Shown: piece after piece, positions 1,103 through 3,097 of the stretch
How positions within the stretch are numbered: position 1 is the stretch's first letter
Layout: each line of letters starts with the position of its first letter
Assembly: GCA_947169985.1 (NCBI GenBank)
Contig: CAMVRW010000149.1
Location: 1 to 6,128 of the forward strand
Direction: 5' to 3'
DNA from: an uncultured Butyrivibrio sp.
GTDB lineage: Bacteria; Bacillota; Clostridia; Lachnospirales; Lachnospiraceae
DNA length: 6,128 bases
The notes under the pieces: generated by a model
Database searches by the model: none
What the model was told of the DNA's origin: nothing
The model's input: only the letters and a program-made list of their open reading frames with translations
Program-made: the position numbers and the translations under genes

Positions 1103-1903
1103 ATGGAAAACGTTCAGAAGTATCAGAGACAGTATTTTATGCCACCTAAGCCCACCTATGACTGGGTTAAAAAAGACTACGTTGATCATCCGCCAATCTG
1201 GTGCAGTGTTGACCTTCGTGACGGAAACCAGGCCTTGATAGAGCCCATGAGCCTTGATGAAAAGTTGGAGTTTTTCACCATGCTTGTTAAACTTGGCTTC
1301 AAGGAGATCGAGATTGGATTCCCTGCTGCTTCTGAGACAGAGTTTGAGTTCGCAAGAACCCTTATCGAGAAGAACATGATCCCTGACGATGTTACTGTTC
1401 AGGTTCTTACCCAGGCCAGAGAGCATATCATCAAAAGAACTTTTGAAGCCGTTAAAGGTGCTCCAAAAGCTATCATTCATCTCTACAATTCCACTTCTGT
1501 AGCTCAGCGTGAGCAGGTTTTCAAGAAGGATAAGGAAGAGGTTAAAAAGATAGCTGTTGAGGGTGCAAAGCTCCTCGATAAGCTGGCAAAGGAAACCAAC
1601 GGTAACTTTTCATTTGAATACTCACCTGAGAGCTTCCCTGGAACAGAAGTAGATTATGCGGTTGAAGTCTGCAACGCGGTCCTCGATGTATGGAAGCCAA
1701 CCAAGAAAAACAAAGTTATCATCAATATCCCTACAACAGTAGAGATCGCAATGCCCCATGTTTTCGCAACTCAGGTAGAATATATCAGCAAGAACCTTAA
1801 GTACCGCGATGCTGTTACTCTTTCACTCCACCCTCACAACGACAGAGGCTCAGGTGTTTCTGACGCAGAGCTCGGCTGCCTTGCAGGTGCCGACAGAATT
1901 TAG
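1103..1903 (+). CDS. leuA: 2-isopropylmalate synthase, N-terminal part ending at the amber codon
   Basis: This is what would be translated if the TAG terminates: 266 residues holding most of the catalytic barrel of type II 2-isopropylmalate synthase. Recognisable elements are the substrate and metal motif VDLRDGNQAL, with Arg39 and metal ligand Asp40, then IGFPAASETEFEF (about 73-85), Glu176 in SPESFPGTE, and the metal-binding pair His243 and His245 in SLHPHNDRGSG. The spacing of these residues agrees with what I recall for characterised LeuA proteins. The fragment stops at GADRI, before the GERTGN loop that carries the fourth metal ligand (Asn279 in the full frame) and before the regulatory domain. 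It should therefore be inactive alone. Confidence 0.75.
   Translation: MENVQKYQRQYFMPPKPTYDWVKKDYVDHPPIWCSVDLRDGNQALIEPMSLDEKLEFFTMLVKLGFKEIEIGFPAASETEFEFARTLIEKNMIPDDVTVQVLTQAREHIIKRTFEAVKGAPKAIIHLYNSTSVAQREQVFKKDKEEVKKIAVEGAKLLDKLAKETNGNFSFEYSPESFPGTEVDYAVEVCNAVLDVWKPTKKNKVIINIPTTVEIAMPHVFATQVEYISKNLKYRDAVTLSLHPHNDRGSGVSDAELGCLAGADRI
1901..1903 (+). other. In-frame amber codon replacing a conserved glutamate in leuA
   Basis: The frame reads GADRI-TAG-GTLFGNGERTGN. In LeuA proteins this position is normally glutamate (GADRxEGTLFGNGERTGN), and one G-to-T change at 1901 converts GAG to TAG. The frame continues without shift for 397 more codons of clear LeuA and AraC sequence. A nonsense mutation, a base-call error, or suppression of UAG would all fit. 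I see no recoding element I can name around it. Confidence 0.9.
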
Positions 1904-1939
1904 GGAACTCTTTTCGGAAACGGCGAAAGAACTGGAAAC

Positions 1940-3097
1940 GTGGACATTGTTACCCTTGCCATCAACATGTTCTCCCATGGCGTAGATCCAAAGCTTGACT
2001 TCAGCCACATCATGGAAGTTGGCGAGACCTACGAGCGTCTTACCAGAATGAGAATCTATGAGAGACAGCCTTATGCCGGGCAGCTTGTGTTTACTGCTTT
2101 TTCCGGTTCCCATCAGGATGCCATTTCAAAGGGCTTTGCATGGCACGAACAGAAAAAGGACAAGGGCATATGGTCAGTTCCTTATCTTCCTGTGGATCCC
2201 AAGGATCTTGGAAGAGAGTACGACGGAGATGTTATCAGGATCAACAGCCAGTCCGGTAAAGGCGGCGTAAGCTACATCCTTAAGACAAATTATGGCATGA
2301 TGGTGCCAAAGGAAATGCAGGCAGATATCAGCTATACCATCAAGGATATCTCAGACAGAGAGCATGCTGAGCTTTCACCTGCAAGAATCTATCAGATCTT
2401 CGAGGACAAGTATGTCCACAACGACAATGTATTCAGGATCCCTTCTGTTCACTTCAAACAGATCGACGGCATCCTTGCAGAGGTTACCATTGTTCACGCC
2501 GACAAGGAGCACGTGGTTGAAGCCAACGGAAACGGTCGCCTTGATGCTGTCAGCAACGCCATCAAACAGTACTTCAACATCAGCTACGAGCTTTCTGTTT
2601 ACGAGGAGCATGCCCTTTCAAGAGGTTCATCTTCAAAGGCCTGCACTTATGTAGGAATCACCTTCAATGGTCAAAAGTTCTGGGGTGTTGGAATAGACGA
2701 GGATATCATCAAGTCCTCAATTGGTGCACTGGTTATTGCCGTGAATCAGATTGACGCAGTTAAGAATATCAAGAACAGCAAGGATGAGAGAATAAACTCC
2801 ATCATCAACTACATTCAGGAGAATTACCTGACAGTTACTTTGGATGATCTTTCAAGCCAGTTCTACCTCTCAAAGCCATACCTTTCAAAGTACATCAAGG
2901 AAAAGTCCGGTATGACCTTTGGCGAGAACGTAAAGAGGATACGCCTGAACAAGGCCAGTACTCTCCTTCGCAACGGAAACATGAAGGTTGAGAAGGTAGC
3001 TGAAGCAGCAGGATATCAGAATGTGGAGCACTTCAACAGACTCTTCAAAAAGAAATATGGCATGACTCCGGTACAGTACAGGAGCAGCAGCCGCTGA
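1940..3097 (+). CDS. LeuA C-terminal part: leucine-binding domain plus AraC-type DNA-binding domain
   Basis: This is the open frame after the amber codon, 385 residues if counted from GTG at 1940. That GTG is the valine of GERTGNVDIV inside LeuA and has no convincing ribosome site, so independent translation from it is doubtful. The segment continues LeuA through the linker subdomains and the LeuA dimer domain (from about NDNVFRIPSVHF to GALVIAVNQI), which binds leucine for feedback inhibition in the family. From nucleotide 2783 it becomes an AraC/XylS-type domain. The first helix-turn-helix contains LDDLSSQFYLSKPYLSKYIK, and the second contains VEKVAEAAGYQNVEHFNRLF, followed by the KKKYGMTPVQYR signature at the C-terminus. 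Both helix-turn-helix motifs look intact. The HTH1 wording resembles YesN-type regulators. Confidence 0.75.
   Translation: MDIVTLAINMFSHGVDPKLDFSHIMEVGETYERLTRMRIYERQPYAGQLVFTAFSGSHQDAISKGFAWHEQKKDKGIWSVPYLPVDPKDLGREYDGDVIRINSQSGKGGVSYILKTNYGMMVPKEMQADISYTIKDISDREHAELSPARIYQIFEDKYVHNDNVFRIPSVHFKQIDGILAEVTIVHADKEHVVEANGNGRLDAVSNAIKQYFNISYELSVYEEHALSRGSSSKACTYVGITFNGQKFWGVGIDEDIIKSSIGALVIAVNQIDAVKNIKNSKDERINSIINYIQENYLTVTLDDLSSQFYLSKPYLSKYIKEKSGMTFGENVKRIRLNKASTLLRNGNMKVEKVAEAAGYQNVEHFNRLFKKKYGMTPVQYRSSSR
2783..3094 (+). other. AraC/XylS-type double HTH domain at the LeuA C-terminus
   Basis: Residues 561-664 of the full frame form the whole two-HTH module of about 100 residues that AraC-family regulators use to bind DNA. 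The conserved second-half pattern A-x3-GY-x5-F-x-R-x-FKK-x2-G-x-TP-x2-YR is present in full. AraC domains are normally joined to a small-molecule sensor or dimerisation domain; here the partner is the leucine-binding domain of the enzyme. The recognition is strong, while DNA binding by this protein is inferred. Confidence 0.93.

Follow-up and report, generated by a model that had tools for sequence, protein, structure and literature searches.

Enzymes that carry a DNA-binding domain of their own are already known as a kind. BirA and NadR are biosynthetic enzymes that also serve as transcription factors for their pathways (not known to be anything but repressors), and Ada combines an O6-methylguanine methyltransferase with AraC-type DNA binding in a single autoregulating chain, in the service of suicidal DNA repair rather than of metabolite-sensing biosynthesis. 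PutA is a catabolic, redox-switched enzyme with an N-terminal ribbon-helix-helix domain. In enteric bacteria it is a proline dehydrogenase that directly represses its own operon (PMC6978683). The present study concerns a gene, here termed leuA-araC, in a 6128-nucleotide stretch of DNA from an uncultured Butyrivibrio sp. of the Lachnospiraceae. This stretch, referred to below as the window, is the whole of contig CAMVRW010000149.1 (G000:C149) of a 376-contig, 67% complete genome (G000). Read through an in-frame stop codon, the gene encodes a type 2 2-isopropylmalate synthase (LeuA) followed by an AraC-type DNA-binding domain. LeuA-AraC is probably a single-chain trigger enzyme, which would bind its own promoter and, in Butyrivibrio, also that of leuCD, with the window gene as an interrupted copy.

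The likeness to PutA lies in a metabolic enzyme acting on its own genes, as PMC6978683 describes for PutA and as is here predicted from sequence for the fusion; the fusion differs in being biosynthetic and in having a DNA-binding domain that is of the AraC type and C-terminal. BirA and NadR have other folds and belong to other pathways. The first-pass annotation of the window held that AraC domains usually join sensor domains and not enzymes, a generality to which Ada is a known exception. The closest solved structures are those of Mycobacterium tuberculosis LeuA (NF002991/PRK03739 type 2; 1sr9 and 3fig; 45% identity in the structure match), which shares the catalytic, IPMS_D2 and leucine-binding dimer domains and the active-site motifs. 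Unlike the fusion, that enzyme ends after the dimer domain, without a DNA-binding domain, and it is not known as a regulator. In relatives, the same gene is controlled by a T-box leader, an RNA sensor of tRNA. Among publications judged by their titles and abstract openings, none was found on a LeuA-AraC fusion, or on a leucine-synthesis enzyme with its own DNA-binding domain, operator and regulon. What would be new here is thus a leucine-synthesis example with a candidate operator.

Domain organization and the in-frame stop codon

The features of leuA-araC in the window are listed below.

1091..1097, + strand: ribosome-binding site (GGGAGGA), whose end is 5 bases upstream of ATG 1103
1103..1903, + strand: N-terminal piece of LeuA-AraC, 266 amino acids, ending at the in-frame TAG at 1901-1903
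1904..3097, + strand: remainder of LeuA-AraC in the same frame (end of the catalytic domain, IPMS_D2, LeuA_dimer and AraC domain; stop codon TGA)
2369..2752, + strand: LeuA_dimer, the leucine-binding allosteric domain (PF08502, 90.9 bits in the genome search)
2753..2788, + strand: variable linker (dN/dS 0.130, mean identity 0.45)
2789..3094, + strand: AraC-type double helix-turn-helix domain (HTH_18, 70.8 bits against a cut-off of 33.6, at 2852-3085)
Amino acids 45-321, 341-407, 436-563 and 597-674 of the read-through product: HMGL-like, IPMS_D2, LeuA_dimer and HTH_18, respectively, all above the Pfam cut-offs

The read-through product (677 amino acids; + strand, frame 1) scored 807.1 bits against the NF002991 (PRK03739) profile, for which the cut-off is 455, and 684.2 bits against the TIGR00970 leuA_yeast equivalog, narrowly short of the cut-off of 697.4. 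The first-pass annotation was correct in coordinates and strand and in placing an AraC domain after a LeuA with its dimer domain; all four domains exceed their cut-offs. Alignment of an intact homologue (P0019, of B. proteoclasticus B316) to 1sr9 revealed that the active-site motifs DLRDGNQ, HPHND, GNGERTGN, GSHQD and YLP match those of M. tuberculosis LeuA; they are also found in the two window pieces. A model of the homologue (mean predicted local distance difference test score 73.7, from 26 sequences) places seven AraC-domain helices at residues 562-661, with the dimer domain directly before them. Two helix-turn-helix units are predicted (helices 580-587/591-602 and 629-635/641-652), in agreement with the double-helix-turn-helix assignment of the first-pass annotation. 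The model is poor at residues 316-387, so nothing is concluded about domain packing.

The frame is open from position 1064, and the window contains two open reading frames (ORFs), at 1064-1903 (better start at 1103) and 1940-3097. The TAG that separates them, which was missed when a single reading frame was described, lies inside the catalytic domain, between the HPHND and GNGERTGN motifs. Among proteins from the loci in which the motif around this position is matched, 207 of 207 have an identical sense residue there; some genomes contribute duplicate loci to this set. Between the window and its nearest relative, the proportions of nonsynonymous (pN) and synonymous (pS) differences are 0.012 and 0.524, respectively; pN is 0.008 before the stop, 0.015 after it and 0.004 in the AraC part, with pS values of 0.49-0.64. 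As the codons on both sides of the TAG are constrained, the stop is likely to be very recent, a strain variant or an assembly error, which fits the data better than an old pseudogene.

It is possible, if rather unlikely, that the window copy is a true pseudogene in a leucine-auxotrophic strain, or that its downstream ORF is an enzyme-less regulator. This would concern the window copy only and would be compatible with LeuA-AraC as a trigger enzyme elsewhere. An in-frame TAG within the catalytic domain would fit such an account, the interrupted copy is the sole LeuA_dimer match of the assembly, and the dimer and AraC parts are retained in the downstream ORF. There is only one lesion, however, the low pN and high pS relative to the nearest relative are alike on either side of it, single-base errors are plausible in an assembly so fragmented and incomplete, and the candidate leuA operator and leuC site described below are both intact in this genome.

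In the genomes of the genus, a second LeuA-like match was not found among the matches listed (to an E value of approximately 3e-15). Given this and the single LeuA_dimer match in the window's assembly, the enzyme function seems to rest on the fusion.

Ratios of nonsynonymous to synonymous substitution rates (dN/dS) were determined for 11 Butyrivibrio loci. They were 0.025 for the catalytic domain, 0.048 for D2 plus dimer, 0.130 for the linker (residues 551-565 of the 664-amino-acid form) and 0.018 for the AraC domain; synonymous sites were near saturation, and after saturated pairs were dropped 49, 53, 17 and 38 of the 55 pairs, respectively, were kept. Mean identity is 0.79 in the AraC part vs 0.45 in the linker. 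By this measure, constraint on the AraC part equals that on the catalytic part.

Distribution of the fusion

The fusion was found in 34 of the 36 other Butyrivibrio genomes, at 77-97% identity; one copy (G031) runs off its contig and continues on a second one, and completeness is 80-81% in the two genomes that lack a LeuA match. Of 397 Lachnospiraceae genomes sampled, 363 had a LeuA match (E value 1e-60), fused to an AraC end in at least 88 besides that of the window. The suggestion in the first-pass annotation that homologous fusions may exist in related genomes is thereby borne out. Two length classes are apparent, the fused proteins having 661-676 amino acids (contig-cut copies aside) and those of the 39 plain or split loci 550-573. 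All 87 other-genus fused loci that were read are open and encode more than 600 amino acids. In a protein search, LeuA_dimer and HTH_18 occurred together in 120 of 120 proteins among the matches listed (7289 in total). The named matches belong to Butyrivibrio and further Lachnospiraceae, including Roseburia, and the source names among the matches listed are simply 2-isopropylmalate synthase. A chance or local assembly join was rejected, as different genera share the junction.

The first-pass annotation had also considered that relatives might possess a LeuA ending near residue 550 next to a separate AraC gene. This does not describe the family at large: in the initial set of other fused loci, the frame continues without interruption across LeuA and AraC in 47 of 47 (one is cut by a contig end). 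It does describe two genomes, G121 and G138, in which an AraC ORF in another frame directly follows leuA; both loci fall within the fused clade discussed below. The rest of the 39 plain or split loci gave no AraC match. In G138 (L059, 1480-1680, - strand), the AraC frame stands behind a run of eight A residues, a possible slippage site.

A class-wide sample of 341 genomes gave a match (E value 1e-100) in 114, fused in 11 including that of the window. Three of these 11 fusions lie outside the family, two in family f35 and one in f94, and in them the candidate operator described below is situated approximately 70-90 base pairs (bp) before the matched gene start. Both f35 genomes (G667 and G533) also hold a second, plain LeuA, which suggests that enzyme, regulator and site were transferred horizontally together. 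Within the family, fused and plain LeuA occur together in G082 and G168 in this sample.

An operon containing leuA and other genes of the pathway was rejected by a neighbour survey of the fused loci. In all 80 named loci, surveyed over up to 10 kb per side (many shorter), no match to leuB, leuC, leuD, ilvB, ilvN, ilvC, ilvD or ilvE flanks the fused gene, and 87 loci with 0.6-1.5 kb flanks yielded one ilvE-like match.

A candidate operator upstream of leuA

A conserved site of approximately 38 bp was found upstream of fused leuA genes, with the consensus ATTAAAAnAnATCAAnnAAAnTGATTAAATTTnnCACT and the blocks ATCAA and TGATTAAA. The corresponding features of the window promoter, scored with a position weight matrix (PWM), are as follows.

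917..956, + strand: O1, predicted LeuA-AraC operator, immediately ahead of the leuA promoter, with a 27-nucleotide core at 920-946 (PWM score 31.3, higher than any other in the 300 bp preceding leuA)
978..983, + strand: predicted -10 element, with the extended TG at 975-976 (consensus columns 48-57 of the relatives, mapped by inference onto the window)
980..1019, + strand: O2, a second predicted operator, spaced 63 bp from O1 in the downstream direction (PWM score 10.4, the second best in the region)

O1 is the best of three genome-wide matches to the pattern in the window's genome and is conserved in relatives, and O2 overlaps the predicted -10 element and transcription start.

It is apparent that the site accompanies the AraC domain. 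With 0-2 mismatches and within 400 bp, its 20-nucleotide core was present in 51 of 86 other-genus fused loci and 40 of 53 named Butyrivibrio loci vs 2 of 39 plain or split loci; shuffles of every set never gave fewer than 3 mismatches. The 27-nucleotide pattern, within 600 bp, was found in 70 of 96 fused loci and both split loci at up to 2 mismatches and in 89 of 96 fused loci at up to 4; among 38 plain loci none came within these limits, the best having 5 mismatches. One fused row was left out of each of the 400-bp and 600-bp counts for want of upstream DNA; the rows dropped were L050, at a contig edge with its AraC part cut, and L137, for which the gene start was not found on the contig piece. 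Presence of the motif and presence of AraC thus match nearly completely.

Alignment of 50 promoters revealed a fixed distance between the site and an extended -10 element (TG.TA..AT), together with a poor -35 element. Such an arrangement would be expected if an AraC-type activator were in contact with RNA polymerase. Downstream, 31 of 59 other-genus promoters (1 in shuffles) contain the site again, 24 of them at 73-75 bp; for Butyrivibrio the figure is 36 of 48 promoters (6 in shuffles), with 25 of the second copies at 62-63 bp. These spacings correspond to approximately seven and six helical turns, respectively; spacings of 49, 59, 68-70, 106 and 116 bp form a minority.

At four loci (L029, L036, L038 and L046) the operator sits inside a hairpin, AAGGAAAGTGATTAAA...CACTTTCCTTTTT, that resembles a terminator of the upstream gene, so that one stretch may serve as both terminator and operator. 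In G004, a second copy of the leuA operator was seen on another contig beside a YkuD-like gene; the ends of two contigs may here represent a single locus.

Candidate sites elsewhere in the genomes

The operator pattern was also used, at up to 2 mismatches and with the reversed pattern as control, to scan 80 of the 87 other-genus fused genomes. There were 86 sites, in 66 genomes, vs 17 for the reversed pattern, and 63 of them (62 genomes) lie within approximately 0.8 kb upstream of leuA-araC. Of the sites not at leuA, 23 in number, four lie in front of branched-chain genes: ilvN-ilvC (G102), leuC (G275), leuB-ilvD-ilvB (G400) and ilvB-ilvN-ilvE (G251, with a T-box between), the gene names having been confirmed by NCBIfam. 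A many-gene regulon outside Butyrivibrio was not supported, as 19 of the 23 look like background; with only four at branched-chain genes, the regulon there may be leuA alone. In 80 genomes without an intact fusion (20 of them classed as plain LeuA by score alone, and two being the split genomes) there were 10 sites, in nine genomes, vs 11 for the reversed pattern. Two of these 10 are at leuA, both in the split-AraC genomes G121 and G138.

In Butyrivibrio, 37 genomes have a leuC match, and the promoter was read in 30 of them. The site was found in 24 of these 30, 102-155 bp before the start (21 at up to 2 mismatches and three at 3-4). The window's own genome is among them (G000:C85). In both loci that were read further, leuD follows leuC.

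Phylogeny and T-box leaders

A tree of 137 rows was constructed from the LeuA part alone. All 99 AraC-bearing rows fall, with 17 unfused rows, in one 116-row clade (bootstrap 98, SH-like approximate likelihood-ratio test 96). The tree requires 11 changes, for which the simplest reading would be one gain and about ten losses of the fusion. In phylogenetically independent pairs, the operator (up to 4 mismatches) shifts with AraC state in 5.7 of 7, never oppositely (median P 0.03, range 0.03-0.125).

T-box leaders were found at 28 of 38 plain leuA loci vs 13 of 95 AraC-bearing loci scanned (Fisher P 5e-11); the Rfam scans of L052-L089 without L059 gave 28 of 37 plain loci. They are present in 11 of the 17 plain rows inside the fused clade. 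In G061 and G404, which have both elements, the operator is upstream of the T-box by position. In the same kind of pair test on the T-box, 0.6 of seven pairs went the same way, 1.1 went the other way and 5.3 showed no difference, which is no effect. These data accordingly suggest, and do not prove, that AraC/operator control has been exchanged with T-box control at leuA. At L061 and L064, a Clostridiales-1 RNA was observed between the T-box leader and the gene.

Neighbouring genes in the window

Three further coding regions were noted.

1..822, - strand: divergent NAD(P)/FAD-dependent oxidoreductase, truncated at the contig end
3121..3792, - strand: YkuD L,D-transpeptidase with a signal-like N terminus, convergent to leuA
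3896..6127, - strand: large protein of surface type, in which three repeats resemble one another, with a run of serine residues and a lysine tail; its adhesin-domain match is weak

Proposed mechanism and alternatives

The enzyme and DNA-binding domains are conserved together across genomes, and operator-like sites lie at the leuA, leuC, leuB, ilvB and ilvN promoters. A site that tracks AraC before leuA, leuC and a few branched-chain genes supports a trigger enzyme well beyond what co-occurrence of the domains would. The single-chain trigger enzyme proposed in the first-pass annotation thus gains a conserved family and an AraC-tracking candidate site; what that proposal overlooked was the stop in the window copy.

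A possible mechanism may be outlined. The two AraC domains of one LeuA dimer would occupy O1. At low leucine, the O1-bound fusion would help RNA polymerase at the poor -35 element, raising expression of leuA and leuCD. Leucine in the dimer domain, or a larger amount of LeuA, would weaken the use of O1 or fill O2, and leuA would be turned off. The position of O1 and the weak -35 suggest activation, and O2 over the start, together with a perfect -35 element (TTGACA) at the ilvB promoter of G251, suggests repression in at least some states. The sign of regulation and the ligand are the weakest steps of this mechanism.

Several observations weigh against the trigger-enzyme reading. The window copy as written, with its premature TAG, would not make the fusion. 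Seven of the 96 fused loci lack a site (up to 4 mismatches) within 600 bp, one of which, G067, has a perfect match approximately 0.8 kb upstream, before a T-box. Six of the 30 Butyrivibrio leuC genes lack one, and the 19 other non-leuA sites of the genome scan are about the number expected by chance, given 17 reversed-pattern matches. An AraC/XylS-type domain would be expected to use tandem half-sites some two helical turns apart beside the -35 region; within O1, the direct repeat at 22 bp is no stronger than other arrangements, scoring 2.96 against 3.34 for a palindrome and 3.24 for a repeat at 13 bp. At the strict cut-off (up to 2 mismatches) the pair test gave 3.9 of 7 with a median P of 0.125, which is not significant. 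Finally, we infer leucine as effector from the dimer domain only, and the sign of regulation is ambiguous.

Three alternatives bear on the function of the AraC part. It might be an operator-binding autorepressor that holds the amount of LeuA constant, with DNA binding independent of leucine. The position of O2 over the predicted start in many promoters would fit this, as would the concentration of above-background sites outside Butyrivibrio at leuA itself. Sites of the O1 type at leuC, leuB and ilv promoters without leuA would not, nor would the direct joining of the DNA-binding domain to a domain of the leucine-binding type, and this alternative is considered improbable. A motif belonging to a separate regulator of leucine genes, with the AraC tail of LeuA doing other work or none, is less probable still: the ties between motif and AraC are statistical only, but the motif (up to 4 mismatches) is present in 91 of 98 AraC loci and in none of 38 without AraC, the two change together on the tree, the motif stands beside fused copies in other families, and the AraC part is under strong purifying selection. 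A plain gene fusion without regulatory meaning, fixed by drift, is hardly credible: the AraC part has seemingly been lost in some lineages (the 17 unfused rows inside the clade), but it is constrained where present, linked to the operator and spread over many genera.

A single-chain trigger enzyme is therefore the preferred reading. A more detailed account is finely balanced between true and false. LeuA-AraC would be a one-protein leucine homeostat, combining catalyst, sensor and transcription factor, that arose in the Lachnospiraceae when a LeuA acquired, a single time, the AraC domain and the operator, there largely replaced the T-box, recruited leuCD in Butyrivibrio, was lost jointly with the operator about ten times and was transferred jointly with it to other families.

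Biological significance

Trigger enzymes with a DNA-binding domain of their own are few, and LeuA-AraC would add a biosynthetic, allosteric one. It occurs across many genera of bacteria common in the gut and rumen, and its candidate operator and putative small regulon are open to direct testing, with natural experiments supplied by relatives in which the fusion is intact, split or absent and the operator is present or missing. The comparison also points to a possible exchange, at leuA, between control by a protein and control by an RNA.

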